Assembly (NCBI RefSeq): GCF_007970185.1
Contig: NZ_CP042431.1
Span: 3,720,001 to 3,784,000, forward strand
Length of the DNA stretch: 64,000 nucleotides
Reading direction: 5' to 3'
From: Pseudobacter ginsenosidimutans
Lineage (GTDB): Bacteria; Bacteroidota; Bacteroidia; Chitinophagales; Chitinophagaceae
Shown here: piece after piece, positions 2,088 through 24,151 of the stretch
Layout of the letters: each line of letters begins with the position of its first letter
How positions within the stretch are numbered: the stretch's first letter is position 1
Position numbers and translations under genes: made by a program
The notes under the pieces: generated by a model
What the model was told of the DNA's origin: nothing
The model's input: only the letters and a program-made list of their open reading frames with translations
The model's database searches: none

Positions 2088-2110
2088 ACACAGGATATAC
2101 TGCCCTGTGT
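2088..2110 (+). promoter_or_regulatory. FecR-SusC intergenic hairpin, cassette 1
   Basis: A 7-bp stem (ACACAGG at 2088-2094 with CCTGTGT at 2104-2110) and 9-nt loop sit between FecR and SusC. All four cassettes have a hairpin at this place. No T-tract follows, so it is more likely a processing, stability or attenuation element than a plain terminator. The role is inferred. Confidence 0.4.
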
Positions 2111-2148
2111 GCAACAACTCCTTCTATACATTCAACCAAACTACCGCT

Positions 2149-5100
2149 ATGGTAAAACTGATGCTGCTTATTGCTGTCGTACTGCATTTTCCTGCCCTTA
2201 CGATGGCCCAAAAAATCTCCTTGAGCGGAAAAAAGGTTACGCTGCCCGCTGCATTTGCCGAGATAAAAAAGCAAACAAATTATGCCGTATTATTCAATCC
2301 AAAAATACTGGACACGGCTGCCACTATTTCCATCAATGTAAAGGACCGGCCACTGGAAGAATTTTTGAAAGACATTCTGGCCAGCCAATCGTTACGGTAC
2401 CGGATTATGGGCACTAATATCATTGTGTCGAAAAAAGAAAATAATCTTTCCGGGCCGGAAGAAGTTGAAAGTGATCCTGCCCTGGTAATACCCGGTGAGC
2501 TGCATGGCGTAGTATTTGAAAAAGGCAACCGGCCGCTGTCAGGTGTAAGCGTGGTATTGAAGCGTACAGGCCGGGGAACCCAAACAGATGTAACCGGAAG
2601 ATTTACCCTGAAAGGAGTAGGGGTGAAAGATACGATCATCTGTTCTATGATCGGTTATCAAACCACTTCAATCCGGGCGGTAAAAAGCGAGGTGCCGATG
2701 GCGATAGTGATGAATATTGCCGTGAATGAACTCGATGAAATGGTAGTGCAGGCCTATGGTGTTACCAGTAAACGGATGGCTACCGGGAATATTACCAAAA
2801 TAAGCGGAGAGGAGATCAGGCAGCAACCAGTGATGAACCCTTTACTGGCATTGCAGGGAAGAGTGCCTGGTATGGTAGTAACTCCTACAACAGGCTATGC
2901 AAGTTCTCCGGTAAAAGTAGAGATAAGAGGAAGGAATTCATTGAATAAGAATTTCTCGGGAGAACCATTGTATGTGGTGGATGGTATTCCACTTTCTGTT
3001 TTGGATCTGAAGGGATCTGCTGCCAATGAATTTGGTTTATCGAAAGGGTATGCACAGGGCGGATTTTCAACTACGGGAGGACAGAGTGTTTTGTTTGGCA
3101 TGAACCCCAATGATATTGAAAGTATCGAAGTATTGAAAGATGGTGATGCTACCGCCATCTACGGATCGAGAGCGGCTAATGGCGTGATCCTGATCACCAC
3201 TAAAAAGCCTAAACCAGGTAAGCCTTCCTTTAATATAGGTTTAACGCAGGGCATCTCAGATGTACCACGGCATGTAAAAATGCTTAACACAAAGGAGTAT
3301 CTGGCCATCAGACGCCTGGCCCTGAAAAATGATGGGGTTGCTCCAACTGAACTAAACGCACCTGACCTGGTGTTGTGGGATACTACGCGTTATACCGACT
3401 GGCAAAAAGAGCTGTTTAATACTGGCGTGAATACCGGTATCAATGCAGGATTTTCAGGCGGGGATAATCGCGTTACTTATGGTTTGAGTACAGGTTATAC
3501 TACCAATAAAGGGAGGTTGAACAGAAGCGGCAAAGATGAGGCTTTGAGTGTGAGGTTCAACCTGGGACTACGTAGCCGGAATCAGAAACTCTCCTTCAAT
3601 ATGTCTGCAGGGTATACTTATACCTACGTTGATGCTATTGCTCTTTCTGAGGATATGATCAGCCTGCCACCCAATGCACCCTCCATACTCGATAGTAAAG
3701 GAGCGCTGAACTATGCGGAATGGGGAGGGGTAATGGGTAACATGTATCCTTTTTCTGCACTTCGAGAGCCCAATATCACCAGGTTCAATAACCTGGCGAG
3801 TAATATGGAGATCAATTATGAAATATTGAAGGGACTCAGACTAATGGTTAGGGCAGCTTATTCCAGCGGCATGGGTACGAGTGAGACTTACAGGCCAATA
3901 GCATCAAGAAATCCATTGGAGAACCCTACGGGTGAAGCCAATTTTGGAACCACAAAAAACAATACCTGGTTAATTGGCCCGCAATTGAGTTTTAGCCGGT
4001 TCATTGGTAAAGGCTCACTGGAAATTATGGTGGCTGGCAATCTCGAGAACACAACTACGAGCGCTGTTACGATGATGGGTTCGGGTTATACCAACGATGA
4101 GCTACTTGGTAGTATTTCCAATGCTGTCACTCAAAGAAGCTCTGATAATTTTGCGCAGTATAAATTCGCATCCTTAAAAGCGCGTGTGTCCTACAACTGG
4201 GCACGCAAATATGCTATTACACTGAATGGGAGCCGTGATGGATCTTCCAAGTTTGCGCCAGACAGACTGTACGGAAATTTCGGATCTGCTGGCGTATCCT
4301 GGATTCTTTCAGAAGAAAAATGGATGAAGCAGATCCTGCCTTCCTGGTTCAATTTCATAAAATTCAGGACCAGCTATGGTATAACAGGAAGCAATGCTGT
4401 AGGTGATTACCAATACCTGTCGCAATGGGGTGTGGCGGTGACTGGCACAGCAGCCTTGCCGGGCTATGATGGTGTTCGGCCTTATGTTCCCAGGCAGGCA
4501 GTGAACCAGCAGTACCATTGGGAGGCAAATAAGAAATGGGATGCGGGAGTAACGCTGAGTTTTCTGAAAGAAAGAATTGGACTGGGTGTTAGTGTTTACA
4601 GGGAAATCTCCGATGATCAGCTGATCACCCAGTCAACCCCCAGCTTCTCAGGGTTTACTACAGTTACTGCCAATCGCCCGGGAAGGGTGGAAAATAAAGG
4701 GCTGGAAGCTTCCTTGAATGCAACACTTATCGCCAGCAAAAATTTCACATGGTCTATCGGTTACGGTTTTGCCTATAATGTAAACAAACTACTGTCTTAT
4801 CCGGGCCTTGATTATTCTCCGCACGCTACTGCATACAGAATTGGCCAATCACTGAGCACCATTTACCTCCTTCATTATCTTGGCATCGATCCGCTCACGG
4901 GAGATTATAGTTTTGAGGATCATAATAAGGACGGGGAGATCATCCCGATTGGTGGTTTCATGCCCGGGTATGTAAAGGATGATTCTTATATCGCCTATAA
5001 CCCGGACCTTGAATTTGACGGGAGTGTATCTTCTAATATCAGATACAAAAATGCTTCCCTGTCATTTATTTTGACCTATAGTGCCAAAAAGCTTCCTAAC

Positions 5101-5472
5101 CCGTTTCTTGTTAATGCGATCGGGGGAATGAAAAATTTTTACATGCCGGCCAGCGAACTCAGCAATTATTGGCAAAAACCCGGCGATCAGGCGCAGTATC
5201 CTCGTTTCACCAATGGATCCCTTTCAGATATCCGTGCCTCGGATGGATATTATTCAGATGGTTCTTTCCTTCGCCTCCAAAATCTTTTCTTCTCTTATCA
5301 ATTACCTGAAAAATTGATTCAGAAAGCAGCGCTGACGAACTGTAGTTTTTCAGTGGGCCTGAATAATGTTTTTACCATTACCAGGTATAAAGGGATAGAT
5401 CCGCAGGTGTTGAGTTTATCTGGTCCGCCTCCTCCCAGGATCATCAATGCATCTTTAAATGTAACCTTCTAA
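2149..5472 (+). CDS. SusC/RagA-family TonB-dependent receptor with STN domain, cassette 1
   Basis: Outer-membrane active importer, about 1107 residues from the ATG at 2149; a GTG at 2107 would add 14 residues. The ATG gives a clean signal peptide (MVKLMLLIAVVLHFPALTMA). Domains in order: STN secretin/TonB short N-terminal domain (about 20-90), CarboxypepD_reg-like beta-sandwich (about 125-200), plug domain with the SusC signature IEVLKDGDATAIYGSRAANG, then a 22-strand-type barrel ending in phenylalanine. STN domains occur in receptors that signal to FecR, which matches the neighbours. It partners the SusD encoded 10 bp downstream. It is closest by eye to the SusC of cassette 2. The substrate is unknown; nothing nearby encodes a glycoside hydrolase. 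Confidence 0.95.
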   Translation: MVKLMLLIAVVLHFPALTMAQKISLSGKKVTLPAAFAEIKKQTNYAVLFNPKILDTAATISINVKDRPLEEFLKDILASQSLRYRIMGTNIIVSKKENNLSGPEEVESDPALVIPGELHGVVFEKGNRPLSGVSVVLKRTGRGTQTDVTGRFTLKGVGVKDTIICSMIGYQTTSIRAVKSEVPMAIVMNIAVNELDEMVVQAYGVTSKRMATGNITKISGEEIRQQPVMNPLLALQGRVPGMVVTPTTGYASSPVKVEIRGRNSLNKNFSGEPLYVVDGIPLSVLDLKGSAANEFGLSKGYAQGGFSTTGGQSVLFGMNPNDIESIEVLKDGDATAIYGSRAANGVILITTKKPKPGKPSFNIGLTQGISDVPRHVKMLNTKEYLAIRRLALKNDGVAPTELNAPDLVLWDTTRYTDWQKELFNTGVNTGINAGFSGGDNRVTYGLSTGYTTNKGRLNRSGKDEALSVRFNLGLRSRNQKLSFNMSAGYTYTYVDAIALSEDMISLPPNAPSILDSKGALNYAEWGGVMGNMYPFSALREPNITRFNNLASNMEINYEILKGLRLMVRAAYSSGMGTSETYRPIASRNPLENPTGEANFGTTKNNTWLIGPQLSFSRFIGKGSLEIMVAGNLENTTTSAVTMMGSGYTNDELLGSISNAVTQRSSDNFAQYKFASLKARVSYNWARKYAITLNGSRDGSSKFAPDRLYGNFGSAGVSWILSEEKWMKQILPSWFNFIKFRTSYGITGSNAVGDYQYLSQWGVAVTGTAALPGYDGVRPYVPRQAVNQQYHWEANKKWDAGVTLSFLKERIGLGVSVYREISDDQLITQSTPSFSGFTTVTANRPGRVENKGLEASLNATLIASKNFTWSIGYGFAYNVNKLLSYPGLDYSPHATAYRIGQSLSTIYLLHYLGIDPLTGDYSFEDHNKDGEIIPIGGFMPGYVKDDSYIAYNPDLEFDGSVSSNIRYKNASLSFILTYSAKKLPNPFLVNAIGGMKNFYMPASELSNYWQKPGDQAQYPRFTNGSLSDIRASDGYYSDGSFLRLQNLFFSYQLPEKLIQKAALTNCSFSVGLNNVFTITRYKGIDPQVLSLSGPPPPRIINASLNVTF

Positions 5473-5482
5473 AACCAGTCTC

Positions 5483-6970
5483 ATGCTTACTCAATCAAAA
5501 TTGATTATAATTTATATTGGTTGCTTTTTGGGAGTGGTGCTGCAATTGTCCTGCAAAAAACTGGTCAGCATCCCTCCTCCTAAAAATACGCTTACAACCG
5601 TACAGGTATTCAGCTCCCTGTCCCAGGCAGAAAGTGCTATGGCTGGCATTTACACGCGGATGATCAATGGTGAAAACAATAGTGCGCCTCCGCTGGCCGG
5701 AACCAATGTATGGAGTGCAGGCGCATTAAGACTGCTGGCAGGATTGTCTTCCGGAGAACTCTATAATTCCGGAGGGCCTCTCCAGGCAAATTACTACGCT
5801 TTTAGTTCCAACAAGCTTACCGCAATCAATAATAGTTCAACTGCCTTGATCATATGGAAAGGTGCTTACATAACTATCTATGGCGCCAATTCAATTATTG
5901 AAGGTGTAGCAGCTTCTACTTCGCTGAGAGAGGATGACCGCAAAAGATTAACGGGGGAAGCAAAATTTCTCCGTGCATTCGCTTACTTCTATCTCACTAA
6001 TTTATTTGGTGATGTACCACTGGCCCTGACGGTAGATTTTCATAAAACGGTTAATCTGCCGAGAGCTCCGCAGGCAGAAGTGTATAAACTGATCATCGAT
6101 GATCTGAAAGAAGCGCAGACCAGCATGAGCCCGGAATATACTACAAGCCTGGGCGAAAGGATCCGCCCTAATAAATGGGCTGCCACGGCGCTGCTGGCAA
6201 GAGCTTATCTCTTTACAGAAGATTATGACAATGCGGTCATCAATGCAACAGCGCTTATCAACGAGCAGGGCTTATACCAACTGGAAACAGATTTGAATAC
6301 CACCTTCAAGAGCAATAGCCTGGAAGCGATCTGGCAATTGAAACCAGGGGGTACAAGCAGTATCTTAAAAAATGCAACCCCGGAAGGACAGATCTCCCTT
6401 CCATCCCCTCGTTATACGGGTTATGCCGATTTTTATTTGTCGGGTCATCTGATGGGTGCTTTTGAGCCCGGAGATAAACGCAGAGTAGATTGGGTGGATA
6501 GTACAATTTATACCGGTGGATCGGGCAGCGCCAATTTTTATCCAACGAAATACCAGATCGGACAATCGAACAGTGCTTTCGGCCAGCCCGGAGAATATTA
6601 CATGATGCTTCGTCTCGCTGAAATATTCCTGATCCGCGCAGAAGCAATAGCCAGAGGCAACCAGGGAAATTTATCAACGGCTATCGATGACCTGAATGCC
6701 ATCCGCCACAGGGCTGGATTGGAACATCTGCCCAATACCTTGAATAAAGAACAGGTGATTGCAGCAGTGGAGCAGGAAAGACAAGTAGAACTCTTTGCCG
6801 AATGGGGCCACCGCTGGTTAGATCTCAAGCGAACCAACCGGGCATCGGTGGTACTGAAAACAATACCGGTGAAACTACCCTGGGAAGGAGATTATCAATT
6901 GCTCTATCCAATTCCTGTTGAAGAGATCCGGGACGATTATTTCCTCACACAAAATCCAGGCTACTTCTAA
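5483..6970 (+). CDS. SusD/RagB-family outer-membrane lipoprotein, cassette 1
   Basis: Surface substrate-binding lipoprotein, 495 residues, that would form the lid over the SusC pore. A lipoprotein signal peptide ends at Cys24 (LQLSC). The TPR-rich SusD fold is indicated by GEAKFLRAFAYFYLTNLFGD (about 157-176) and by the C-terminal signatures LRLAEIFLIRAEA and WGHRWLDLKRT, followed by LLYPIPVEEI near the end. The gene starts 10 bp after SusC, so the two are translated from one message. It is strongly similar to the SusD of cassette 2, including the stretch around ITIYGANSIIEGVAAST. Ligand unknown. Confidence 0.95.
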   Translation: MLTQSKLIIIYIGCFLGVVLQLSCKKLVSIPPPKNTLTTVQVFSSLSQAESAMAGIYTRMINGENNSAPPLAGTNVWSAGALRLLAGLSSGELYNSGGPLQANYYAFSSNKLTAINNSSTALIIWKGAYITIYGANSIIEGVAASTSLREDDRKRLTGEAKFLRAFAYFYLTNLFGDVPLALTVDFHKTVNLPRAPQAEVYKLIIDDLKEAQTSMSPEYTTSLGERIRPNKWAATALLARAYLFTEDYDNAVINATALINEQGLYQLETDLNTTFKSNSLEAIWQLKPGGTSSILKNATPEGQISLPSPRYTGYADFYLSGHLMGAFEPGDKRRVDWVDSTIYTGGSGSANFYPTKYQIGQSNSAFGQPGEYYMMLRLAEIFLIRAEAIARGNQGNLSTAIDDLNAIRHRAGLEHLPNTLNKEQVIAAVEQERQVELFAEWGHRWLDLKRTNRASVVLKTIPVKLPWEGDYQLLYPIPVEEIRDDYFLTQNPGYF

Positions 6971-6985: not shown

Positions 6986-7789
6986 ATGACCATGATACAA
7001 AAAAGCTCCACCTGCAACCAGGGTTTGCTTCCAAAAAACAATCCCGCAGTAAGCATACTATCGATAATTATTCCGGCCTTGCTTTTCATCTCCTGCAGAA
7101 AAGAAAGTGTAGCGCCTGGCAGCGCTTCCCTGGCGATTGTTCATCTGGTAGCGGGCAGTAAACCACTGGCTGTTAATTTTAATAGCGAAGGACCAGTTCC
7201 CTACAAAACGGGAAGACAGTTGAATTACCGGTTCTTCGAAAGAGTTAATCAATTCAAAGCCTATTCTGGTGAGCAAAGACTGCGACTGTTCCAATATCCC
7301 GATACTACAGACAAAGATCTGCCGCTATTTGATCTGCAGCTCAACCTGCCTGTTGGTTCTATGAATACCTTGTTCCTGACAGGAACAGTGGATGCACCGG
7401 ATACATTTTTTACCAGAAATATTATTCCCTACTTTCCTGAAACCGACAGCTCATTGGCTATCCGGTTCGTTAATCTCTCTCCCGGAAATGATCCCATCAG
7501 CATCAATGTAAAAGGACTGGCCAATGGTTCGGAAGTCAGCTCTATCAGGTATAAGAACATTACTGATTTTAAAAATTATGCAGCCACCCAAAATATCAGT
7601 GAGTATGTATTTGAATTCCGGGATGCAATCAGCGGTGATTCGATTACCAGCTACACTATTCCAGATATCAATGTGCCGGGAACCGAAAGCCCTAACATAA
7701 GAAGATATCGCAGTTTCACTCTTGCGTTGACGGGCGAGGCAGGCGGCGTGGGAGATCGCGCAAGGGCTGGTTTTTTAGTGAGTCACTAA
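6986..7789 (+). CDS. Small lipoprotein, DUF4397-like, cassette 1
   Basis: A 267-residue putative lipoprotein with a lipobox at Cys37 (LLFISC). The mature part shows two beta-rich repeats of the kind found in DUF4397 proteins (SLAIVHLVAGSKPLAVNF and LAIRFVNLSPGNDPISINV); this family call is tentative. It starts 15 bp after SusD and ends 44 bp before the ABC ATPase, so it bridges the import and ABC halves of the cassette. It aligns along its length with the broken homologue in cassette 2, but not with the lipoprotein at the same place in cassette 3. It may be an accessory surface protein of the SusCD complex. Function unknown. Confidence 0.75.
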   Translation: MTMIQKSSTCNQGLLPKNNPAVSILSIIIPALLFISCRKESVAPGSASLAIVHLVAGSKPLAVNFNSEGPVPYKTGRQLNYRFFERVNQFKAYSGEQRLRLFQYPDTTDKDLPLFDLQLNLPVGSMNTLFLTGTVDAPDTFFTRNIIPYFPETDSSLAIRFVNLSPGNDPISINVKGLANGSEVSSIRYKNITDFKNYAATQNISEYVFEFRDAISGDSITSYTIPDINVPGTESPNIRRYRSFTLALTGEAGGVGDRARAGFLVSH

Positions 7790-7833: not shown

Positions 7834-8760
7834 ATGAATAGCATTCTAAAGATAGAGCAGCTTTCGCATAAGTATAGCAGTTCCTGGGCTATCCGCGATA
7901 TCAATCTAGAGATCAATCAAACAGGTGTAATCGGATTGCTGGGCTCCAATGGAGCCGGGAAATCCACCACTATGAATATCCTCTGCGGAGTATTGAACCA
8001 AACGGAAGGAACCGTGTACATCAATGGGCTGGATACAAGATTGGCACCCGAAGAAGCCAAAAAGAATATTGGTTTTTTGCCACAGAACCCACCAGTATAC
8101 GTAGACCTCACCGTGAATGAATACCTCACTTATTGTGCAGAATTGCGGCTGATAGAAGATGGGAAAGTAAAAGCGGCTGTTGCTGAAGCTATGGATCGTT
8201 GCGGTATAGCGCATTTCAAAACCAGGCTGATCAGGAACCTCTCCGGTGGCTACCGCCAGCGGGTAGGCATCGCTCAGGCGATCATCCACAAACCAAAACT
8301 GGTGGTGATGGATGAACCTACCAATGGTTTAGACCCCAACCAACTGATTGAAGCGAGAAAGCTGATCAAAGAGATTGCCACCGATCATACAGTGCTCTTA
8401 TCCTCCCATATTTTATCCGAGATCCATTTGCTCTGCCGCGAAGTGATCATGATCGAATCAGGCAGAATTATTTTTTCCGATTCGATGGATGCTTTTAACA
8501 ATTATGTACAACCGAATAGTGTGCTGGTAAAAATGGAAAATCCACCATCAGCAGAAGCACTTCAACAAGTAAAAGGCGTTACGAAAGTGGAATTCCTCTC
8601 AGACCGGCAGGCCCGCGTCTATTACGATGGCAGCGAAGACATCACAGAAAGGATCATCGCAGCTGGTGTACAGCATGAGTGGCGGATCAGGGAGATCAAT
8701 TTCGACAAAGGTCTCCTCGACGATATTTTCAAAAAGTTATCTACCCAAACCCTCCATTAA
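7834..8760 (+). CDS. ABC transporter ATP-binding protein, GldA-like, cassette 1
   Basis: Cytoplasmic nucleotide-binding subunit, 308 residues. Walker A is GSNGAGKST (about 36-44), the ABC signature is LSGGYRQRVG, Walker B is LVVMDEPTNGLD and the H-loop is LLSSH. The C-terminal 90 residues form the extension typical of ABC-2 drug/gliding ATPases such as GldA and CcmA-type exporters. It precedes its membrane partner by 10 bp. Residues near the C-terminus (ITERIIAAGVQ, WRIREIN) are nearly the same in cassette 3 but differ in cassette 2. Energises the GldFG-like permease encoded next; the transported substrate is unknown. Confidence 0.93.
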   Translation: MNSILKIEQLSHKYSSSWAIRDINLEINQTGVIGLLGSNGAGKSTTMNILCGVLNQTEGTVYINGLDTRLAPEEAKKNIGFLPQNPPVYVDLTVNEYLTYCAELRLIEDGKVKAAVAEAMDRCGIAHFKTRLIRNLSGGYRQRVGIAQAIIHKPKLVVMDEPTNGLDPNQLIEARKLIKEIATDHTVLLSSHILSEIHLLCREVIMIESGRIIFSDSMDAFNNYVQPNSVLVKMENPPSAEALQQVKGVTKVEFLSDRQARVYYDGSEDITERIIAAGVQHEWRIREINFDKGLLDDIFKKLSTQTLH

Positions 8761-8770: not shown

Positions 8771-11107
8771 ATGAAGTTGATATATAAAATAGCAAAAACA
8801 GAATTACGCAACCTGTTTTATTCGCCGGTTGCCTGGTTTTTAGCCATCGCATTTTTAGTGCAATGTGCTATTTATTATACCGGAATTGTGGGCACGCTGG
8901 CCAAAGGGCAGGATTGGTATTTGACAAATGACCCCACGTTCAAAGAGTACCCCATGTCACTGACCCAGACGGTATTTATAGGAAGTTTTATAGGCTTTTT
9001 TACGGTTTTGATGAAGAATCTTTATTTGTTCATCCCGCTGCTTACAATGGGTATGATCAGTAAGGAGATGAATAGTGGCACAGTAAAGTTATTGTATTCC
9101 TCTCCGGTGAAAGTACGTCAGATCGTTTTGGGAAAATACCTTTCAATACTGCTCTATAACATCTTCCTGATGCTGATTATGAGTGTTTTCGTCATAGATG
9201 GGTTATTGAGTATCAAATCACCTGAGGTTGAAGTGGTAATTGGCCCTGCAATTGGTTTTTTTCTGTTGATTGGTGCCTATACAGCCATTGGCATGTTTAT
9301 GTCTAGTCTTACTATCTACCAGATCGTGTCTGCGCTGGCAACCTTTCTCACCTTTTACGTACTGTCTGAGATAGGTAAATTATGGCAACAGTACGACCTG
9401 GTCAGAGACCTGACCTGGTTCTTCTCCATAAGAGGCAGAACTGAAAAAATGATCAGAGGGCTGATCACTACCAGAGATGTGATGTACTATTTGCTGATCA
9501 TTTTTATGTTCGTTTCATTTACGATGTTGAGAATAAAAGGGGCGCGGGAATCGAAGCCCTGGTTTGTAAAAGCCACCCGGTACCTCTCGGTATTTGCAGC
9601 AGTATTGATTATCGGATATGCTACTTCCAGACCCGGTTTTATCGGGTACTGGGATACAACCTTGCTTCAGACCAATACGATCCATGAAAAAACGCAAAAG
9701 ATCATCGAACAACTGGGCGACGAACCGGTTGAAGTAACACTTTATAGCAACCTCCTTGGTGATGCAATACACAGAGCAGCTCCTAAATTCCGCAATGAAT
9801 ATGTGTGGGATCTCTGGGAAAAATATATACGCTTCAAACCAAATATAGATTTGAAGTATGTGTACTATTACGACATTGAAGACGGAGACAGTACTTTATA
9901 TAAACGCTATCCGGGAAAAAACATACAACAATTGGCTACAATGATAGCAGATATCAATGATTTAAATCCGTCAAGGTTCATACCGCCCGGGGAGATCCGT
10001 AAAATGATCGACCTGAAACCGGAAGGCTATGGTGTAGTGATGCATGTGAAGTACAAAGATCGGTCAGCTTTTCTCCGGACTTTCCCTGATACAAAATTCT
10101 GGCCAGACGAATCAAATGTCGGAGCCGTGTTTAAGCGACTGGCAGAAGGTTCTAATCCCAAAGCTTTGTTCGTGACTGGTGACCTGGAACGTTCCATTTA
10201 TAAATTGGGTGAGCGGGAATATGCGCTACATACTTCCTTAAAAGAGATGCGGGCTGCACTGGTCAACCACTCCGTTGATTGTGATACAATTTCATTGGAT
10301 AGAAATGATATCGCTCCTGATGTTGACCTGTTGGTACTCGCAGACCCTAAAGTGAAGCTCAGTGATGTAGCGAGGGCAAAGATCAGGCAGTTTGCCGATA
10401 AGGGTGGCAATATGCTGATCATTGGCGAACCTGGCAAGCAAGAGGTAGTTAATCCGGTGCTTCAGCCATTCGGTGTTCAGCTCATGAATGGTACCCTGGT
10501 TGAAATCACAAAAAATGAAATGCCGCATATGGTGTACCCAGGTGTAACAATAGCTGGAACTGAGCTTGCGATAGAAGACCAAATGCTCAGAAAATACAAC
10601 CGTATGTTGAAAGCGGGTCTCGGTATTCCGAGAGTGCTGAATGAAGGTGTAAGTGGAATTGCCACCAGCGACAGCGGTTTTACCGTAAAGCATTTACTGG
10701 TCACCAAAAACAGGAACGCCTGGGCGAAAGTGGGCAAACTGGTAACGGATTCTGCCGACCCGGTGTTTGTTAGAGAAGAAGGCGATTATAAACTGGACTC
10801 TTTCTCTACTGCTGTTTCGTTAAGCAGACAGGTTGGTAATAAAGAACAACGCATTATCGTATGTAGTGATGCAGACTTTTTGAGCGCGATTAGACTAAGC
10901 GGTGGCAATCTTGGGGTGGCTTACTATAGCTGGCTGATATATAACAGATATCCTATCTACACCCCCCCTATTGGAGAGCCGAAAGATGTGCTCATGACCA
11001 TTAGTGTAGCCAGGGCCAAAATAGAAAAAATAGTATTCATATGGGTTTTACCTGGCCTGCTGCTCCTCCTTGCCACCATTCTGCTGATCAGGCGTAAACG
11101 ACAATAA
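8771..11107 (+). CDS. ABC-2 permease fused to GldG-like auxiliary domain, cassette 1
   Basis: A 778-residue inner-membrane protein combining what are two proteins, GldF and GldG, in the gliding system. The first 290 residues hold six or seven membrane segments of the ABC-2 type, with the conserved NSGTVKLLYSSPVKVRQIVLG. A long periplasmic part follows (about 300-740): a GldG/ABC_transp_aux-type domain (TNTIHEKTQKIIEQL, VEVTLYSNLL) with a DUF4350-like GGNMLIIGEPGKQEVVNP. A last membrane helix ends in RRKRQ. It lies between its ATPase (10 bp) and MutS-a (10 bp). Gliding function is not implied, because no other gld genes are here. Confidence 0.9.
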   Translation: MKLIYKIAKTELRNLFYSPVAWFLAIAFLVQCAIYYTGIVGTLAKGQDWYLTNDPTFKEYPMSLTQTVFIGSFIGFFTVLMKNLYLFIPLLTMGMISKEMNSGTVKLLYSSPVKVRQIVLGKYLSILLYNIFLMLIMSVFVIDGLLSIKSPEVEVVIGPAIGFFLLIGAYTAIGMFMSSLTIYQIVSALATFLTFYVLSEIGKLWQQYDLVRDLTWFFSIRGRTEKMIRGLITTRDVMYYLLIIFMFVSFTMLRIKGARESKPWFVKATRYLSVFAAVLIIGYATSRPGFIGYWDTTLLQTNTIHEKTQKIIEQLGDEPVEVTLYSNLLGDAIHRAAPKFRNEYVWDLWEKYIRFKPNIDLKYVYYYDIEDGDSTLYKRYPGKNIQQLATMIADINDLNPSRFIPPGEIRKMIDLKPEGYGVVMHVKYKDRSAFLRTFPDTKFWPDESNVGAVFKRLAEGSNPKALFVTGDLERSIYKLGEREYALHTSLKEMRAALVNHSVDCDTISLDRNDIAPDVDLLVLADPKVKLSDVARAKIRQFADKGGNMLIIGEPGKQEVVNPVLQPFGVQLMNGTLVEITKNEMPHMVYPGVTIAGTELAIEDQMLRKYNRMLKAGLGIPRVLNEGVSGIATSDSGFTVKHLLVTKNRNAWAKVGKLVTDSADPVFVREEGDYKLDSFSTAVSLSRQVGNKEQRIIVCSDADFLSAIRLSGGNLGVAYYSWLIYNRYPIYTPPIGEPKDVLMTISVARAKIEKIVFIWVLPGLLLLLATILLIRRKRQ

Positions 11108-11117: not shown

Positions 11118-12419
11118 ATGAATTTATTGACCGATGAACAAACCATCGATGATCTAAGGATCTTTGGTAAGCGTGATGCCAGCGGTATATATGATCTGTA
11201 CAATCACACGCATACACGCGGAGGAGAAAAATTGTTGTCAGACATGTTCCGTAACCCATTGTCTGATCAAGAAGCCATCAACCAGCGCGGCGGCATCATT
11301 GAACAATTCGCCAAATTGAAAACACGCTTCCCTTTTGAAGGAGCTTTGTTTGATATGGCTGAGAAATATTTACTGGCAGCAGATGAACAAAAGAACCAGG
11401 CACCACATCAAACGGTACTCAGTGAAAAAGAAATCAATAATGGGGTGACCGCTGTGATTGAGCTTGTACAACGTATCCGGGATTTTGTGGGAAGCACTGA
11501 AGTGAAAGGGATAAAAGGATATGAGCGGGAGCGTGAAGGTATTGTGGCATTGCTGATCGATCCTGTATTTGATCCCGTACATAGAGAAAAATCAAAAAGC
11601 AAATTATCCTATGCAGCCATTACCGCCTATGATCTGTTGTTCAGGGTGCGGGAACGAAATAAAGTGGAAAAGCTGCTCGCATACATATATCAGCTGGATG
11701 TATATATTTCTGTAGCGCAGGTGGCAACGGAAAGGAATTTTGTATTTCCGAAGGCAATGGACAAAGGTAAGAGCCACCTGAAACTGGAAGGGGTTTACCA
11801 CCCGGAACTGAAACACCCTGTGAGTAACGATATAACCATGGATGCCGGTCAGAACCTGATCTTTCTGACCGGCGCCAACATGGCGGGAAAGTCAACTTTT
11901 TTAAGAGCATTGAGCACAGCTGTATATGTGGCGCATATGGGATTTCCGGTAGCGGCACGTAAAATGGAATTTTCGGTTATGGATGGGATTTATACTACCA
12001 TCAACCTGCCTGATAACCTCGGCATTGGAGCCAGTCATTTCTACGCGGAAGTATTGCGGGTAAAGAAAATTGCCAGTGAACTACATGCAAAGAAATCCCT
12101 GTTCATCATTTTTGATGAATTATTTCGTGGTACGAATGTAAAAGATGCGCATGAGGCAACTGTAGATATCACCAGGGCTTTTGCTGAAAAGAAAAACAGC
12201 CTGTTCATTATTTCCTCCCATATAGTGGAAGCAGGAGAGCGGTTGCAACAACAACCCACCATTGGATTTCAATACCTGCCTACATATATGAACGGGCATA
12301 CTCCTGAGTATACCTACACACTGGTGGAGGGCATCACTGCCGACCGTCACGGCATGATCATTATTCGCAACGAAGGAATACTGGAGACGCTCAGGAATGG
12401 CCGCAAACGAGCGGGATAA
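11118..12419 (+). CDS. Short MutS-family ATPase, subunit a, cassette 1
   Basis: A 433-residue cytoplasmic ATPase related to the C-terminal part of MutS. The N-terminus corresponds to the start of MutS core domain III (THTRGGEKLLSDMFRNPLSD). Walker A is GANMAGKST (252-260), the trans-signature region reads GASHFYAEV where MutS has STF, Walker B is IIFDELFRGTN (Asp333, Glu334), the H-loop is ISSH, and the C-terminal DRHGMIIIRNEGI matches the MutS SxG helix region. MutS domains I and II, which read mismatches, are absent, and the clamp appears deleted because Walker A comes about 100 residues early. It starts 10 bp after the permease. The partner is presumably MutS-b. Not a canonical repair protein; role unknown. 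Confidence 0.88.
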   Translation: MNLLTDEQTIDDLRIFGKRDASGIYDLYNHTHTRGGEKLLSDMFRNPLSDQEAINQRGGIIEQFAKLKTRFPFEGALFDMAEKYLLAADEQKNQAPHQTVLSEKEINNGVTAVIELVQRIRDFVGSTEVKGIKGYEREREGIVALLIDPVFDPVHREKSKSKLSYAAITAYDLLFRVRERNKVEKLLAYIYQLDVYISVAQVATERNFVFPKAMDKGKSHLKLEGVYHPELKHPVSNDITMDAGQNLIFLTGANMAGKSTFLRALSTAVYVAHMGFPVAARKMEFSVMDGIYTTINLPDNLGIGASHFYAEVLRVKKIASELHAKKSLFIIFDELFRGTNVKDAHEATVDITRAFAEKKNSLFIISSHIVEAGERLQQQPTIGFQYLPTYMNGHTPEYTYTLVEGITADRHGMIIIRNEGILETLRNGRKRAG

Positions 12420-12455
12420 TCTAGCATTTTGCAAATAAAAAACACAGACTTTATC

Positions 12456-13772
12456 ATGAGTTTTAACATAGACAGACAAACGCTGGACGAATTGAACCTG
12501 TTGGGCAGGTTCAGGCAGGGATCAGTCTATCATCTTTTCTGCCAGGTGAAAACAAGGGGCGGGGAAAAATTACTGGACGAAATGTTCCGCACCCCATTGG
12601 ATAACGAGACGGACATTAATCATAGAAGCAGTGTATTCCGGTTCTTTCAGCAAGCGAAACTGGTATTTCCTTTCGATGTACAACAGGTTGGACTAATGCG
12701 CGAGTATCTCGATACGGGTTCCGGCAAAAGTGCATTGGCCATTCTCGTGAATATGATCGTTAAAAAATCACTGAGCAGTCTCACCCGCGATGAGCGATAC
12801 AAAAAAAATGTACAGGGATTGCAGGCCACCATTGTAACGCTGAAAAGGTGTAATGTTCTTTTGGAAGCCCTTCAACCAATACCAGGGCCGTTTTCAGAAC
12901 GCGTTGATGCAATAAGGAAAATACTCTCCGATAAGCACATCGAAAAGCTGCGGAATACCGATATCTATACCGCCTTACCGGTGAAAATGCTGGCTTATTA
13001 CGATCACTTGCTGAAAAGCAGGTTTCCGCAGGAGATGAATGAGGTGTTGACCTTTATCTATGAACTTGATGTGAACATCGCCGTGAGTGACCTGGCCAGG
13101 TCAAAAGGATTCTCCTACGCCAACGCATTACCACAGGGAAAAAATCTGCTGAGGGCTGCCAACCTCGCACATCCCTGTATCGATAAGGCGATCGGTAATG
13201 ATATTAACATGAACGAAGATAGTAATGTGGTGTTCCTCACCGGTGCGAATATGGCCGGGAAATCAACCCTCATGAAATCCATCGGCATCGGTCTGTATCT
13301 CGCGCATATGGGATTTCCTGTGGCTGCTGCATCGATGGAATTCTCTGTACGTGAGGGCTTGTATTCCTCTATCAATGTAGCGGATAATATTGGTCTTGGC
13401 TACAGCCATTTTTATGCAGAAGTAGTGCGGGTAAAACAGGCAGCAGAAGCGGCCGCCAGTGGAAAGCGATTACTGCTGATGTTCGATGAACTGTTCAAGG
13501 GCACCAATGTGAAGGATGCCTATGATGGCACACTGGCCGTTACGGAGGCTTTCGCGGAGTACCGGGATTGTCTGTTTATTGTATCCACCCATATCATCGA
13601 AGTAGGGGAGGCATTGAAGGGGACCGGTAATATTCATTTTACGTATATGCCTACCATCATGGATGGAAACCATCCGAAGTATACCTACAAACTGGAACAG
13701 GGCATCACCGAGGACCGGCAGGGAATGATGATCATCCGCAATGAAGGCATCCTGGAGCTGATCGCTTCCTGA
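12456..13772 (+). CDS. Short MutS-family ATPase, subunit b, cassette 1
   Basis: A 438-residue paralogue of the preceding gene. The ATG at 12456 is preferred over a TTG at 12429 because MutS-b proteins of the other cassettes start at the same point (SFNIDRQTLDEL). It has a core-domain start (VKTRGGEKLLDEMFRTPLD), Walker A GANMAGKST (263-271), GYSHFYAEVVRVKQAA, Walker B LLLMFDELFKGTN (Asp344, Glu345), the H-loop STHIIEVGE and C-terminal DRQGMMIIRNEGIL. Diagnostic differences from subunit a (Y for A before SHF, DRQ for DRH, LFK for LFR) recur in all three cassettes. This points to an obligate pair of distinct subunits, probably a heterodimer. Function unknown. Confidence 0.88.
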   Translation: MSFNIDRQTLDELNLLGRFRQGSVYHLFCQVKTRGGEKLLDEMFRTPLDNETDINHRSSVFRFFQQAKLVFPFDVQQVGLMREYLDTGSGKSALAILVNMIVKKSLSSLTRDERYKKNVQGLQATIVTLKRCNVLLEALQPIPGPFSERVDAIRKILSDKHIEKLRNTDIYTALPVKMLAYYDHLLKSRFPQEMNEVLTFIYELDVNIAVSDLARSKGFSYANALPQGKNLLRAANLAHPCIDKAIGNDINMNEDSNVVFLTGANMAGKSTLMKSIGIGLYLAHMGFPVAAASMEFSVREGLYSSINVADNIGLGYSHFYAEVVRVKQAAEAAASGKRLLLMFDELFKGTNVKDAYDGTLAVTEAFAEYRDCLFIVSTHIIEVGEALKGTGNIHFTYMPTIMDGNHPKYTYKLEQGITEDRQGMMIIRNEGILELIAS

Positions 13773-17240: not shown

Positions 17241-17831
17241 ATGCAGGACAGATCCCTTCATAAAGAATGGTTCAAACTAATTGCCGGAGGCGACGAGACT
17301 GCTTTCAGGAATTTGTTCGACACCTATTGGGAGCACCTGTATTCAGTGGCCCTCATGCTCACCAAATCAGAAGCCCTGGCCGAAGACATTGTACAGGAGA
17401 TCTTCCTGAAGATCTGGAATAAGCGTGAGGAATTGCCCGAAGTGGAGAAACCCGACAGTTATCTTTTTATCATTGCCCGCAATCATATCTACAACGTGCT
17501 GAAGCAGCAGCAGCGGGAAGAGCAATACAATAAACATATTATCGACTGGTTTGAAGGCGCCAGGGAAAACCCTGAAAGCGAACTGCTTTTCAAGGAATCT
17601 TCAGAGCTGCTGAATAAGGCCGTAGCAAACCTTTCCACGCAGCAGCGGGCTGTTTATCAACTCGCCCGGGAGCAGGGACTTAGCTACAATGAAGTGGCTG
17701 CTCAATTGAATATTTCTCCCAATACCGTGAAGAACCATCTGACCATTGCCCTGAAATATATCAGGGAATACCTGCGTCATCACGCTTCTCCTACTGTGAT
17801 GATAATTGCCCTTCTCGAAACGATGAAATAG
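17241..17831 (+). CDS. ECF-type RNA polymerase sigma factor, cassette 2
   Basis: A 196-residue sigma factor of the Bacteroidota FecI-like group. Region 2 covers about 12-80 (LAEDIVQEIFLKIWNKREEL, SYLFIIARNHIYNVL). Region 4 covers about 125-180 with a clear helix-turn-helix (LSYNEVAAQLNISPNTVKNHL). A possible -7 box TAATTTAG lies at 17161-17168, leaving a leader of about 70 nt. The FecR gene follows after about 100 bp. It presumably drives this cassette's SusC promoter. It is transcribed divergently from the Crp-AraC regulator. Confidence 0.93.
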   Translation: MQDRSLHKEWFKLIAGGDETAFRNLFDTYWEHLYSVALMLTKSEALAEDIVQEIFLKIWNKREELPEVEKPDSYLFIIARNHIYNVLKQQQREEQYNKHIIDWFEGARENPESELLFKESSELLNKAVANLSTQQRAVYQLAREQGLSYNEVAAQLNISPNTVKNHLTIALKYIREYLRHHASPTVMIIALLETMK

Positions 17832-17933
17832 GCATTATAGCCTCCGGCAACCTTTCCTGTAGCAGGATCTCAGAATTTTTTAAAAAAATTGAAAACACAC
17901 TGGTAGGAATCTTTTTTACCGTTGTCTTTATTT

Positions 17934-19139
17934 ATGATGAAAGATTTTGAACAACTTTTCGATGGCTGGGTGGAAGGCACCCTCACTACAGAAGAAGCTT
18001 CCCTGTTCCTGGAAGCCCTGAAGGGTGAGCATCCTGATTTTCCGCAGCTCATCGATCGATTGTTGCAGGAGCCACTGCATACCGGGATGGGAACGGAGGA
18101 ACTTAGGGCGCGCTTGTACAGCGGTATTGCAGCAAAGAAGGCAGCCCAGGAAACACCTGTGCGCAAACTGGTAAGATTCCCGGTGAAATGGGCTGCTGCA
18201 GCAGTCCTGGTACTGATGGCCGGTATTGCCGCCTGGTGGATCGTGAACCATAACCGGCAACCTGAACCAGGCGTTATGGTGGTGAAAGGGGAAATGCCCA
18301 GGCCAGGGGGAGATAAGGCTGTATTGGTGCTGAGCAATGGTAAGCAGCTCTTCCTGGACAGCTCTGCCAATGGCCAGCTGGCGGAACAAGAGGGAAGCCT
18401 CGTGTTCAAATCGGAGGAAGGAAGGATCGATTACCGGCAACAACAGGCAGGAACAACCGAAACTATTGCTTTCAACACATTGAAAACTCCCCGCGGAGGT
18501 CAATACAAACTTACCTTGCCTGATGGCACCAAAGTTTGGCTGAATGCCGCTTCTTCCATCACTTATCCTACCAGTTTCCATGGAAAGGAAAGATCCGTTA
18601 CCATTACCGGCGAGGCTTATTTTGAAGTGGCCAAAATGAAGGCCAGGCGCGGTCCGGGCAATATGCCGTTCAAAGTAAAAGTGGCCGGACTCACCGGCGA
18701 GGGCGGCAATATGGAGATCGAAGTGCTGGGCACGCATTTCAATATCAATGCCTATGTTGACGAACCGGTGGCCAGAACCACCCTGCTGGAAGGCTCCATA
18801 AAACTCGCCAAAGGAAAGGATCGGTTCCTGATGCATCCCGGGCAACAAGCCCAACTGGAAGACAATGGCCAGTTCAGGATCAGCGACAATATCAATCCCG
18901 AAGAAGTGCTTGCCTGGAAGAATGGATTTTTCTACTTCGATCATGCTGATCTGAAAATGGTGATGCGGCAGATTGCAAGATGGTATGATGTAAGTATCGA
19001 ATACCGGCCAGGAGTAACCGATATGAAATTCGGAGGAGAGATCCCCAGGAATGCCAACCTGGATGAAGTACTCAAAATAATGGAGGTGATGAAGATCAGA
19101 TTTATTGTAGAGGAGAAGAAGATCATAGTTATTCCATAA
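17934..19139 (+). CDS. FecR-type anti-sigma factor, cassette 2
   Basis: About 401 residues from the ATG at 17934 (a second ATG follows at once; a TTG at 17922 is less likely). It has a cytoplasmic sigma-binding part, a membrane helix at about 85-105 (AAAAVLVLMAGIAAWWIV) and a periplasmic FecR domain (TPRGGQYKLTLPDGTKVWLN, ITGEAYFEV). The DUF4974-like C-terminal domain (MRQIARWYDVSIEY) completes it. The segment before the FecR domain differs from cassettes 1 and 3 (MPRPGGDKAVLVLSNG instead of PGREGAVLTLADG), so this regulator is the more divergent one. It couples the SusC STN domain to the sigma factor. Confidence 0.93.
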   Translation: MMKDFEQLFDGWVEGTLTTEEASLFLEALKGEHPDFPQLIDRLLQEPLHTGMGTEELRARLYSGIAAKKAAQETPVRKLVRFPVKWAAAAVLVLMAGIAAWWIVNHNRQPEPGVMVVKGEMPRPGGDKAVLVLSNGKQLFLDSSANGQLAEQEGSLVFKSEEGRIDYRQQQAGTTETIAFNTLKTPRGGQYKLTLPDGTKVWLNAASSITYPTSFHGKERSVTITGEAYFEVAKMKARRGPGNMPFKVKVAGLTGEGGNMEIEVLGTHFNINAYVDEPVARTTLLEGSIKLAKGKDRFLMHPGQQAQLEDNGQFRISDNINPEEVLAWKNGFFYFDHADLKMVMRQIARWYDVSIEYRPGVTDMKFGGEIPRNANLDEVLKIMEVMKIRFIVEEKKIIVIP

Positions 19140-19166
19140 ACATTTTATTTCCGGATATCTGTATCG

Positions 19167-19181
19167 GCTTTGTATCAAAGC
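19167..19181 (+). promoter_or_regulatory. FecR-SusC intergenic hairpin, cassette 2
   Basis: A 6-bp stem (GCTTTG with CAAAGC) and 3-nt loop lie in the 99-bp gap between FecR and SusC. The place is equivalent to hairpins in the other cassettes, but the sequence is not shared. The role is inferred; on its own this small stem could be chance. Confidence 0.25.
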
Positions 19182-19238
19182 TGTCAGGAATCGTATTGAC
19201 TATTACCAACTAACTACTGAACATTAACTGCAAAATTC

Positions 19239-22200
19239 ATGAAACGAAGCATAACAAATTTCCCACAAAGAGGGTGTATATGCGAAGTTCCATCCGGCCA
19301 GATTAAGAAAGTAAAAAAGATCCGGATGAAACTAACTGCGCTCATTTTGGTTATAGGCTGCCTGTTCTGCAGTTTGCGGGGGACAGCCCAGGTGGTGACG
19401 CTCTCCGTGAAGAATGCAAAACTGGAAACTGTACTGAAGCAGATCAAGAACCAGACAGGCTATTCGTTTTTTTTCAACGAAGTATTTTATAACAAGGCTT
19501 CAAAAGTAACGCTCAATTTTCAGGGACTTACTTTAACTGAGGCTCTTACGAAGATCTTCAGTCAACAGACGGAATTGGTGTATACCATCGTAGGGAGAAC
19601 AGTGGTGGTAACGGAAAAGGAGAAACCGAAACTGCCTGTTGATTCTGCCGGAAATCCGGCTGCTTCATCAACTGCAAGTTCCGCCAATGCTATTAAAGGA
19701 TTCGTGTACAATAAAAGATTTGAACCGCTCAGCAATGCGAGTATCATGTTACGTGGCACATCCAAAGGTGTTAGTACCGCTGCCAATGGCTCTTTCGAAT
19801 TCAAGGAGGCAAAGCTGGGAGATATGCTGAGAGTAAGTTATATCGGATACAAACCAGTGGATGTAAAAGTGGAATTTTTACAGGGCATCACTGTTATGCT
19901 GGAAGACGCTACCAATGAACTTGACCAGGTAGTGGCGCAGGGTTACAGTAAAACAACCAGGCTGCTGAGTACTTCTTCCGTGGCCCGTGTTTCCGGTGAG
20001 GAGATCGCTCGTCAACCTGTGATGAATCCGCTCATGGCCTTGCAGGGGAAAGTTCCGGGCATGATCGTAACTCCCAACTCCGGGCATGCGGCAGCGCCGG
20101 TTGAGATCACCATCAGGGGTAAAAGCCTTTTATCGGCAGCCAGTCCCAATCCGCTGATCGTGATCGATGGAACACCTATGAATGTTGGCTCCAATGATGG
20201 CGTATTACATGGGGATGGACCTGTACAGGGATGGATGGCCACGCTAAGTCCGGCAGGCAGCCAGAGCCCGCTTTTCGGATTCAACCCGAAGGATATTGAA
20301 AGTATAGAAGTATTGAAAGATCTCGGCTCAACTGCCATCTATGGTTCTTCAGGCGCCAATGGTGTGATACTGATCACTACTAAAAGAGCCAAATCAAATA
20401 CATCCGATCTGAATGTGAGTGTAGGATATGGCATATCCAAAGTGATGCGCTATTTCGATATGCTCAACACAAAACAGTATCTCGAAATGCGGAGGGAGGC
20501 TTACAAGAACGATGGTCTTACACCCATGCCTGCTGATGCTCCGGACCTGCTGCTTTGGGATACTACCAGGTATACTGACTGGCAAAAGGAAATATTTGGT
20601 AACACCGGTAGCAACCTGAATGCGATGATCAGCTATTCGGGGGCGGGCCGCAGCTCAGAAGTTCCATAAGCGCAAGCTACAATACTGTAAGATCCATTAC
20701 CAGGGTCTCAGGTAAGAATGAAGCCATCAATGTAAGGATGGGTGTGGACTTTGCCAGTAATAACCAAAAATTCAAAGTATCGGCTACAGCAGCGTACACC
20801 TATACGCTGGCCAATATGGTGAGTACGCCCATTCTGAGCAAACTACCTCCCAATGCACCACCGCTGCTGGACTCTGCAGGTGAGATCAACTTCAGGGGAT
20901 ATGCAGGAACTATTGGTGTTATCGAAAGTACAGGCATTCAAAACCTGTTCCAGCCGATCGACAGCCGCACCAATGCCCTTATGACCAATTTCAAAGTAAG
21001 CTATCAACTGGCGAAAGGGCTCTCCGTTATTTCAAATCTTGGACTGATCCGGTCAAACAATGAAAGTTGGGCACTGACACCTATCAGGTCCCTGAATCCA
21101 GCGATGAACCCAACAGGACAAACCGTGCATTCCAGGGGAACGAACAGTACGTTCACATTCGAGCCTCAGCTCAGTTACGATACCTGGATCGGTAAAGGAA
21201 AGCTGGCCATCCTTGCCGGCGCTACTTTAAAGAACGAGAAAAGAGAAAGCCTGAGCACGATGGCAATTGGTTTCACCAATGATGCCCTCCTGCGCTCCAT
21301 TATGGCCGCTCCATTCTCCTTTAGCGCCAATACTTATTCTCCCTACAAATATTTCGGCGTATTGGGAAGAGTGGAGTATATCTGGGATAATAAATACGTA
21401 ATGAATCTGACGGGAAGGAGGGATGGTTCTTCCAGGTTCGGTCCGGGCAATCGTTTCGGGAACTTTGGTTCCATCGGCGCTGCATGGATCGCTACTGCAG
21501 AGCCCTGGATCGCCAAAACGCTTGCGCCTGTAGTAAGTATGCTGAAGTTCCATGCCAATTACGGCACAGCCGGATCAGACGGCGGAGGCGATTACCAGTA
21601 CCTTACCCAATGGGGAAGAAAGGAAATGCCGGTGTATGGCGGCGTGGCGCCGATGGTAAGCATGCATGCCGTTAACCAGGATTATCACTGGCAGTCGAGC
21701 AAAGAGATAAACCTTGGTATGGAAGTGGGATTTGGAAAAGACAGCCGTGTATCAATGTCACTCAACTATTACAACAGGCGAACAGGTGATCAGCTGCTCG
21801 GCAATCCCACACCGATCTATACAGGGTTCCCAACTGTATATGGTAACTGGAATGCAGTGGTAGATAATAAAGGATATGAAGGCAGAATAGTTATACAGGC
21901 GATACAAAAGAAAAACTTTGGCTGGAACATGAGTGTGAATGGCGGATTCAACAGGAACATGTTGAGGTCTTATCCCGGCATCGAGAACTCTCCTGACTTC
22001 TATAAATACGTGGTGGGAGAATCAACACAGAATATTTACCTGCTGAATTATGTGGGCGTGGATCCGATGACAGGAAACTACCAGTTCCAGGATTACAATG
22101 GAGATGGATCTATCGATCCCAGTTCTCATTTCAACAATCCTCCGCTAACCTTCCCGAGCGATGTACAGAAAGTGATGTTACTGGGACCGAAATTCACCGG

Positions 22201-22654
22201 AGGTATTGATCATAACCTGCGATACAAAAACTTTTCACTGAATCTAAGCTTCAGCTACAGGTTCCAGAATGGAATGGAGGCTTTCAGAACGGCTCAGAAT
22301 CCCGGAACGATGGGAAATATTACCGTGGAGATGTTCAATAACCGCTGGCGGAAACCAGGCGACAATGCCAAATACTCCAGGTTCACCACTACTTACAATC
22401 AGCCTTATGCGAGAGAGCTTTCCAATCTTGGTTATGTGGATGCTTCCAGTCTGCGCATGAATAATATTTCCTTTTCGTGGTCGCTCACGGAAAAGATCTA
22501 TCGTAAGCTCGGACTAAAGGGAGCTTTCGTCAGCATCAATGCGGGGAATATTTTCGTGATCACGAAGTACCAGGGCCTCGATCCCGATATTCAAAGCATC
22601 AACGTGATGCCACCCACCAAAGACATCGTTCTGAATATTAACATCACCCTCTAA
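19239..22654 (+). pseudogene. SusC/RagA-family TonB-dependent receptor with one-base frameshift, cassette 2
   Basis: The receptor is split into a 5' part (19239-20669) and a 3' part in another frame (open from about 20642, ending 22654). Adding one G to the run of five at 20639-20643 restores SYSGGGPQLRSS and a protein of about 1138 residues, close to the 1121 of cassette 1. The 5' part has a signal peptide (MKLTALILVIGCLFCSLRGTA, from an internal ATG at 19326), STN domain, CarboxypepD_reg-like domain and plug with IEVLKDLGSTAIYGSSGANG. The 3' part is the barrel. There is no other damage, so either the sequence has an error in the G-run or the gene is recently broken or phase-variable. The SusD partner follows 9 bp later and is intact. 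Confidence 0.85.
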
Positions 22655-22663
22655 TGCTGAGCC

Positions 22664-24139: not shown

Positions 24140-24151
24140 AGCCTACTGCAA

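Follow-up and report, generated by a model that had tools for sequence, protein, structure and literature searches.

A 64,000-nucleotide stretch of the Pseudobacter ginsenosidimutans genome (contig NZ_CP042431.1, positions 3,720,001 to 3,784,000; hereafter the window) contains three tandem pairs of genes for short MutS-like proteins, which we call subunits a and b. MutS proteins are textbook DNA-repair ATPases. We found that the genomic context of the a–b pair ties it to an ATP-binding cassette (ABC) transporter and a SusC/SusD (SusCD) uptake cassette rather than to DNA repair. The pair is the tail of a cassette in which the genes for a sigma factor, a FecR anti-sigma factor, SusC, SusD, a lipoprotein, a GldA-like ABC ATPase and a GldFG-like permease precede it in this order. 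When the complete genome, a single contig of 7.8 Mb, was searched with Pfam, 117 matches to MutS_V were obtained. This number is far beyond chance, and the matches resolve into 56 a–b pairs and five others (MutS, MutS2, a 600-residue homologue, a 437-residue orphan and a fragment). The three pairs described in the initial annotation are part of these 56, and the transporter context was absent from that annotation.

The cassette recurs throughout the genome. Within approximately 16 kb upstream of the 56 pairs, a distance at which an adjoining cassette may contribute some of the matches, SusC, the GldA-like ABC ATPase and the GldFG-like permease were each matched for 55 pairs, FecR for 54, the sigma factor for 53, SusD for 50 and the DUF4397-like lipoprotein for 27. 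A GldA-like ABC gene lies no more than 7 kb upstream of 55 of the 56 pairs, and of 67 of the 68 pairs from other genomes with enough sequence (overlapping loci kept in). Fifty-one cassettes were measurable; the stretch from their sigma gene to b has a median length of 15.1 kb, and these stretches add up to 768 kb.

Two types of MutS-like subunit

The two subunits are told apart by one residue. At the position of R697 of E. coli MutS, all 56 a proteins of this genome have arginine and all 56 b proteins have lysine, and when 54 sequences of each type are aligned, this R/K column is the only one that is fixed on both sides. We equate it with R697 because R697 is four residues past the Walker B aspartate, as is the R/K residue here. 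The titles of the PDB entries describe 3k0s as D693N and 1ng9 as R697A, "an ATPase-asymmetry mutant" of MutS; both entries are tabulated in PMC3848065. We infer that the R/K split would render the two ATP sites of the pair unequal. Both sites look intact at the level of their motifs, since Walker A, the DE of Walker B and the H-loop are present in 56/56 a and 56/56 b proteins.

A motif check confirmed that GANMAGKST, a DE Walker B, an S(S/T)HI H-loop, RNEGI and SHF occur in all six MutS-like proteins of the window, as the initial annotation had listed. It had also assigned GASHF, LFRGTN or MFRGTN and DRHGM to a and GYSHF, LFKGTN and DRQGM to b. This assignment holds for the six window proteins, in which the middle motif reads DE(L/M)FRGTN in a and DELFKGTN in b, but GASHF/GYSHF and DRHGM/DRQGM are not fixed genome-wide. 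FRGTN is present in 56/56 a and FKGTN in 56/56 b proteins, and SHF in 54/56 a and 56/56 b. GASHF occurs in 47/56 a (with GYSHF in four a proteins) and GYSHF in 53/56 b; DRHGM occurs in 54/56 a and also in eight b, and DRQGM in 46/56 b. Because these other signatures vary across the 56 pairs, R/K is the firm marker of the two types.

The R-type gene comes first and the K-type gene second in all 53 tandem and both fused pairs of this genome, and likewise in all 70 tandem pairs and all seven fusions at the loci of other genomes. In these counts each pair was taken once, with repeats removed, and a and b were assigned by order, independently of the R/K residue. A phylogenetic analysis was made with 112 sequences, from which fragments shorter than 380 residues were omitted, leaving 54 a and 54 b of the 56 each. 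The 54 a sequences lie on one side of a branch (Shimodaira–Hasegawa-like approximate likelihood ratio test, SH-aLRT, 99). The b sequences occupy most of the other side, and those of the loci L037, L054, L055 and L064 are basal or oddly placed. The a and b of one cassette do not group together, which rules out a recent local duplication within each cassette and upholds the proposal of two subunit types. Judged by this tree, a and b are two old groups. The subgroups of a are mirrored by those of b, except at L043, whose a and b fall into subgroups that do not correspond, which may reflect the exchange of one of the two genes.

Natural a–b fusions are encoded in this genome at L039 and L054, among 79 loci fetched from relatives at L099–L101, L104 and L109, and in other genomes also at L193 and L194. 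L099–L101 are orthologues of L054, to which they are 80–87% identical. Since L039 and L054 are far apart in the tree, the fusion arose at least twice and probably more often. Taken as a complex, a and b very likely form a heterodimer. The fixed subunit types, the constant R/K order, the two old groups and the natural fusions in several lineages make it likely that this heterodimer is obligate.

Loss of domains from the MutS fold

In a Pfam scan of the first pair of the window (matches at E ≤ 0.001), PF00488 (MutS_V) gave 92.1 bits for a and 88.4 bits for b against a cut-off of 30.2, and MutS_III passed its cut-off only in a, the match in b falling short of it. Neither protein matched MutS_I, MutS_II or MutS_IV, nor the KOW or Smr domains. 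An AlphaFold model of the natural fusion from L099 (898 residues) had a predicted local distance difference test score (pLDDT) of 80.3 and a predicted template modelling score (pTM) of 0.73; its alignment had 30 rows, five fused and 25 a sequences, the single b proteins checked having aligned to the a half. The best structural neighbour of the model is MutS (3zlj), matched from E. coli residue 265 to approximately 800 (Z 34.4, 409 aligned residues). The MutS2 core (7qv3, residues 1–495) is among the matches listed, with Z 30.0, and the absence of a family from this list does not exclude that family. In PMC12292046, domain III of E. coli MutS comprises residues 267–443 and 504–567 and the clamp residues 444–503. 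The missing MutS_I and MutS_II matches and the start of the structural match agree with the initial annotation, which had placed the start of the proteins at domain III and proposed that the mismatch reader was lost. Its estimate that Walker A is about 100 residues nearer the core start was also borne out: the distance is 349 residues in the MutS of this genome, and, with the D.QT motif as the starting point, its medians are 246 residues in a and 257 in b. The a and b proteins have thus lost domains I and II. The clamp (domain IV) has very probably been lost as well, in view of the shortened distance from the core start to Walker A and the missing MutS_IV match.

All three relevant NCBIfam models scored below their cut-offs: the MutS equivalog gave 133.8 (a) and 109.6 (b) bits (cut-off 480), MutS2 gave 70.4 and 68.2 bits (cut-off 400), and KamC (NF052383), named in NCBIfam as a lysine 5,6-aminomutase reactivase ATPase, gave 108.1 and 98.5 bits (cut-off 300). 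The matches to MutS2 and KamC, together with the splitting of ribosomes by MutS2 with this core (PMC10897456), are in favor of a MutS2-like or KamC-like factor that would remodel, in place of the transporter, a cytosolic partner through which cassette products are made or reactivated, such as a ribosome, an enzyme or a sigma factor. We regard this as rather unlikely, because the first pair lacks KOW and Smr matches in Pfam, we noticed none for an aminomutase among the cassette genes (no dedicated search was made), and the history of a and b tracks that of the ABC genes, as described below.

Shared history of the pair and the ABC genes

We correlated the distance matrices of the cassette genes between the cassettes of one genome, using 2000 permutations. 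Co-evolution is not imitated by species history in this comparison, because all copies are in one genome. The correlation (rho) was 0.93 for a and b, 0.85 for a and the ABC ATPase, and 0.76 for a and the permease, values reached by none of the 2000 permutations, and all pairwise correlations among these four proteins were between 0.76 and 0.93. SusC and SusD correlated with each other at 0.70, but sigma and FecR only at 0.21. For a with FecR and with sigma, the values were −0.02 and 0.00; the correlations of sigma and FecR are weakened by their large distances (0.74 and 0.62, respectively). In the main-clade subset, rho was 0.75 for a and b, 0.63 for a and ABC, 0.56 for a and the permease and 0.26 for a and SusC. 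The a, b and ABC genes share one history, and the receptors and regulators have been largely swapped.

These data bear on two further explanations. The first is that a and b are separate homodimers with different tasks. The orphan at L065 shows that such a protein can exist without an adjoining partner gene, but the natural a–b fusions in several lineages, the constant gene order, the one-to-one gene number and the a–b rho of 0.93 make this explanation quite unlikely. The second is that nucleic acid is still the target of the pair. It might, for instance, bind branched DNA and so curb recombination between the many related cassettes, its placement in the operon serving only co-expression. Dozens of repeated cassettes are a hazard that a DNA-acting protein could limit, and MutS2, with a core similar to that of the pair, binds branched DNA through its core and clamp (PMC12292046). 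However, the domain length of a and b fits the loss of the clamp, which is the DNA-gripping part. The pair tracks the ABC genes far more closely than the repeated receptors, and some genomes have a single pair among the candidates scored and hence no repeats to police. A DNA-acting pair is therefore unlikely.

Clues to the cargo

A gene for an M16 peptidase with the HxxEH motif follows the pair on the same strand at eight loci (L054, L055, L099–L101, L119, L121 and L126). Six further permease loci came from the phylum sample described below. In L201–L203, which are alike and lack the MutS-like pair, an M16 peptidase of 936–937 residues with HFLEH is encoded directly after the permease, and in L205, also MutS-less, one with HxxEH follows SusD; none was seen in L204 and L206. 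L014 has an M16-like gene without HxxEH. A TonB-dependent receptor, an M16 peptidase and an ABC transporter are thus encoded together in L054, L099, L201–L203 and other loci. This combination recalls the ferredoxin uptake system FusA-FusB-FusC-FusD, which consists of a TonB-dependent receptor, an M16 peptidase and a putative ABC transporter (PMC7593965), and it suggests a peptide or protein cargo. The cassettes differ from Fus in that their receptor is SusC/SusD and that M16 is found in a minority of them. PMC6793856 surveys Fus-like clusters, and the word MutS is absent from it.

The lipoprotein of cassette 3 (Table 1) was modelled with pLDDT 78.5 and pTM 0.77. Foldseek gave no match to this model at E ≤ 0.001, and a structural aligner ranked a putative zinc peptidase from Bacteroides (4l7a) at the top, with Z 9.9 over 198 residues and 7.1 for the next match. 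HExxH is absent from all 14 members of this lipoprotein family in the genome and all ten members from elsewhere, and from all 19 cassette lipoproteins examined. Going by the model, the protein is perhaps a dead peptidase retained as a peptide binder. Overall, the cargo of the cassettes may well be a peptide.

Proposed role of the pair

We propose a scheme based on the cassette and on the features of a and b. The two proteins would be subunits of one asymmetric ATPase that has the MutS core and ATPase without the mismatch reader and the connector, and very probably without the clamp. In the cytosol, this ATPase would contact the GldA-like/GldFG-like ABC complex encoded upstream and serve as its accessory motor or gate. 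SusC and SusD would carry a peptide or small protein across the outer membrane, and the STN domain of SusC would signal to the sigma factor by way of FecR. In the periplasm, peptidase-type proteins would bind or cut the cargo, and the ABC complex would handle the product, the direction of transport being presumed. By binding ATP at its two sites, which the R of subunit a and the K of subunit b would make unequal, the ATPase would open and close paired lever arms and thereby remodel the ABC complex or the cargo. The remodelling step is modelled on MutS2, which splits ribosomes with the same core (PMC10897456).

That the pair is a partner of the transporter is somewhat more probable to us than that it is not. 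For the composite scheme, in which an asymmetric a–b ATPase and the ABC complex together handle imported peptides, we consider the case evenly balanced. We put forward only tentatively the most specific version, in which a MutS-fold heterodimer has been recruited as a working part of a membrane transporter that handles imported peptides or proteins, acts on neither DNA nor ribosomes, and has ATP sites made unequal by the fixed R/K split.

Several observations weigh against this role. The a distances also correlate with those of SusC (0.28, reached by 2 of 2000 permutations) and SusD (0.49, reached by none), which is weak but above chance, and the shared history may be mere gene linkage, in part or whole. 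Linkage does not appear to be the whole explanation, because SusC and SusD are linked too, yet largely swapped. Four cassettes of this genome (L197, L198 and two in L199) have no pair behind the permease, and one pair (L012) has no ABC or permease gene alongside; the sigma gene that directly follows it belongs to one of these four cassettes. An ABC tree was built with FastTree from 130 cassettes, of which 10 lack the pair and 120 carry it; overlapping loci were included, and one long-branch join (L197 with L014) is suspect. Presence of the pair changes four times along this tree, and starred branches force three or more of these changes. Of the 395 genomes in the phylum sample, 11 have the permease, and three of these 11 have the pair. 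Regarding the cargo, M16 follows only two of the 56 pairs of this genome, with approximately 1.2 kb downstream in view, and no M16 match was found in the MutS-less loci L184–L191 and L197–L199. To our knowledge, no cargo is known for GldAFG-type transporters.

The MutS-less cassettes, here and elsewhere, rule out that the transporter strictly depends on the pair. As such cassettes exist and the permease occurs without the pair (in the family sample, permease in 20 and pair in 18 of 195 genomes), the pair appears to have been added to a transporter that is older. The retention of pair-less cassettes in this and other genomes would also suit a passenger, kept by its linkage to the ABC genes and having no transport role of its own. 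This is very unlikely, because Walker A, Walker B and the H-loop are kept in 56/56 a and 56/56 b proteins, even though a and b differ between cassettes at 42–43% of positions on average. A defence system was considered and rejected: PADLOC gave weak matches for a (18 bits) and matches of ATPase type for the ABC protein, the best being mads_3 with 90 bits, with none for b or the permease, and no defence context was seen.

Organization of the cassettes

The three cassettes of the window are listed in Table 1. The stretches of cassettes 2 and 3 are covered by L027 and L028, respectively. For subunit b of the first pair, the longest open reading frame (ORF) starts from TTG at 12429, and the ATG at 12456 gives a better family fit.

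Table 1 Genes of the three cassettes in the window (positions within the window; single numbers are ORF starts)
Feature	Position	Strand	Basis
Cassette 1 ECF (extracytoplasmic function) sigma factor	103..717	+	Pfam Sigma70_r2, r4_2 above cut-off
Cassette 1 FecR anti-sigma factor	809..2038	+	Pfam FecR, FecR_C
Cassette 1 SusC, N-terminal STN signalling domain	2107..5472	+	Pfam Plug, STN; TIGR04056 663 bits (cut-off 368)
Cassette 1 SusD	5483..6970	+	Pfam SusD_RagB, SusD-like_3
Cassette 1 lipoprotein, DUF4397-like	6986..7789	+	DUF4397 29.2 bits, slightly below cut-off 30.6
Cassette 1 GldA-like ABC ATPase	7834..8760	+	ABC_tran; GldA model 270.2 bits, below cut-off 402.6
Cassette 1 GldF-GldG-like fused permease (PERM)	8771..11107	+	ABC2_membrane_2, ABC_transp_aux; GldF 84.7 bits (cut-off 288.5), GldG 18.6 bits (cut-off 389.85)
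Cassette 1 MutS-like subunit a (core + ATPase, R type)	11118..12419	+	MutS_III and MutS_V above cut-off; motifs
Cassette 1 MutS-like subunit b (core + ATPase, K type)	12456..13772	+	MutS_V above cut-off; motifs
Cassette 2, whole	17241..33513	+	ORFs; BLAST matches in L027; motifs of a/b
Cassette 2 regulators and receptor	sigma 17241, FecR 17922, SusC (two ORFs) 19239/20738, SusD 22664	+	
Cassette 2, rest	DUF4397-like (two ORFs) 24152/24601, ABC 24948, PERM 25933 and 28324, a 30763..32091, b 32191..33513	+	
Cassette 3, whole	39733..54254	+	ORFs; BLAST matches in L028; FecR Pfam; motifs of a/b
Cassette 3, first part	sigma 39733, FecR 40452, SusC 41821, SusD 45623, lipoprotein 47214..48173	+	
Cassette 3, rest	ABC 48346, PERM 49276, a 51622..52917, b 52917..54254	+	

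In cassette 2, SusC (19239–22654) and the DUF4397-like lipoprotein (24152–24927) are each split over two ORFs, and the ABC, permease and MutS-like genes are whole. SusC is in at least two ORFs in seven of the 55 cassettes examined, which points to decaying receptors or small assembly errors. Two permease ORFs precede a in 16 of the 56 cassettes, and in one subgroup (L015, L030, L040, L043, L045, L047 and L050–L053) an extra GldFG-like permease gene directly follows b. A second, weakly sigma-like gene is located between SusD and the ABC gene at L010, L018, L036, L044, L046, L048, L049, L058, L059 and L062. We discounted an apparent permease fusion of 1080 residues at L120, which is probably a chimera of the assembly: its N-terminal part is an unrelated membrane sequence and the locus is on a metagenome contig. 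On the minus strand of the window, positions 54244–58992 encode a protein of 1582 residues with PKD repeats and a type IX secretion tail.

Distribution in Bacteroidota

Five related genomes of the same genus gave 12, 54, 26, 36 and 9 MutS_V matches, which would correspond to roughly 4, 25, 11, 16 and 3 pairs. The 79 loci of relatives were fetched from the best 80 of 128 relatives, and many of them are incomplete because the contig or the fetched flank ends within them. Among the named records, the relatives closest to the fused query are from Pseudoflavitalea. The same cassette order was present in Pseudoflavitalea, Chitinophaga, Niastella, Flavitalea, Niabella and Puia, as well as in Pedobacter, Mucilaginibacter, Sphingobacterium, Solitalea, Butyricimonas and further Bacteroidota among the fetched loci.

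In an even sample of the family, with the best eight candidates scored per genome, the pair was present in 18 of 195 genomes at E ≤ 1e-100. In an even sample of the phylum, with the best four candidates scored per genome, it was present, judged by score, in three of 395 genomes, and the weaker matches resemble single orphans and proteins of about 600 residues rather than pairs. The orphan MutS-like protein at L065 (9026–10339, in the orientation of the pair; 437 residues) has K at the R/K position, and the gene upstream of it resembles, by eye, a dihydroorotase gene. Single matches like this orphan were present in a number of family genomes. The N-terminal part of the 600-residue MutS_V protein at L067 is apparently membrane-spanning, as read by eye, and similar proteins of about 600 residues occur in one other family of the phylum sample.

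Relation to known systems

The pair resembles MutS2 in starting at domain III, in lacking the mismatch reader and connector, and in having the same core and ATPase fold. MutS2, however, is a homodimer with a clamp, KOW and Smr domains (PMC12292046 and PMC10897456), whereas a and b are two gene types with a shorter core. MutS, its best fold match, and the eukaryotic heterodimers MSH2-MSH6 and MSH2-MSH3 share with it the composite ABC-type ATPase; in contrast to these, a and b are without domains I and II, the clamp is apparently absent, and their scores are far below the MutS equivalog cut-off. KamC is likewise a MutS-like ATPase, and the function for which it is named is not DNA repair; a and b are below its cut-off. 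A literature search on KamC and MutS3–MutS7 turned up nothing useful. The closest named relatives of the cassette ABC ATPase and fused permease are GldA-GldF-GldG. Unlike these, the cassette proteins score below the equivalog cut-offs, GldF and GldG are fused, SusCD and mostly the MutS-like pair are attached, and there are many copies. We searched the literature for MutS together with SusC, SusD, GldG, FecR and Chitinophaga and found no description of such cassettes, most subscription journals being outside the scope of the search. The fold is known and the domain set is approximately that of MutS2 without its extras, and the use appears to be undescribed.

This genome exposes a large class of uptake cassettes, which take up approximately 0.77 Mb over the 51 measured cassettes. 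MutS2 is a precedent for this fold acting on ribosomes, and a transporter-bound MutS pair, if true, would extend the family to membrane transport. Such a pair would also offer a natural experiment on ATPase asymmetry, with one residue difference fixed in every pair counted, 56 paralogous pairs in one cell and natural single-chain versions suited to structural studies. The presence of 56 pairs of motor halves beside transport genes, and not repair genes, points to a new job for an old protein family.

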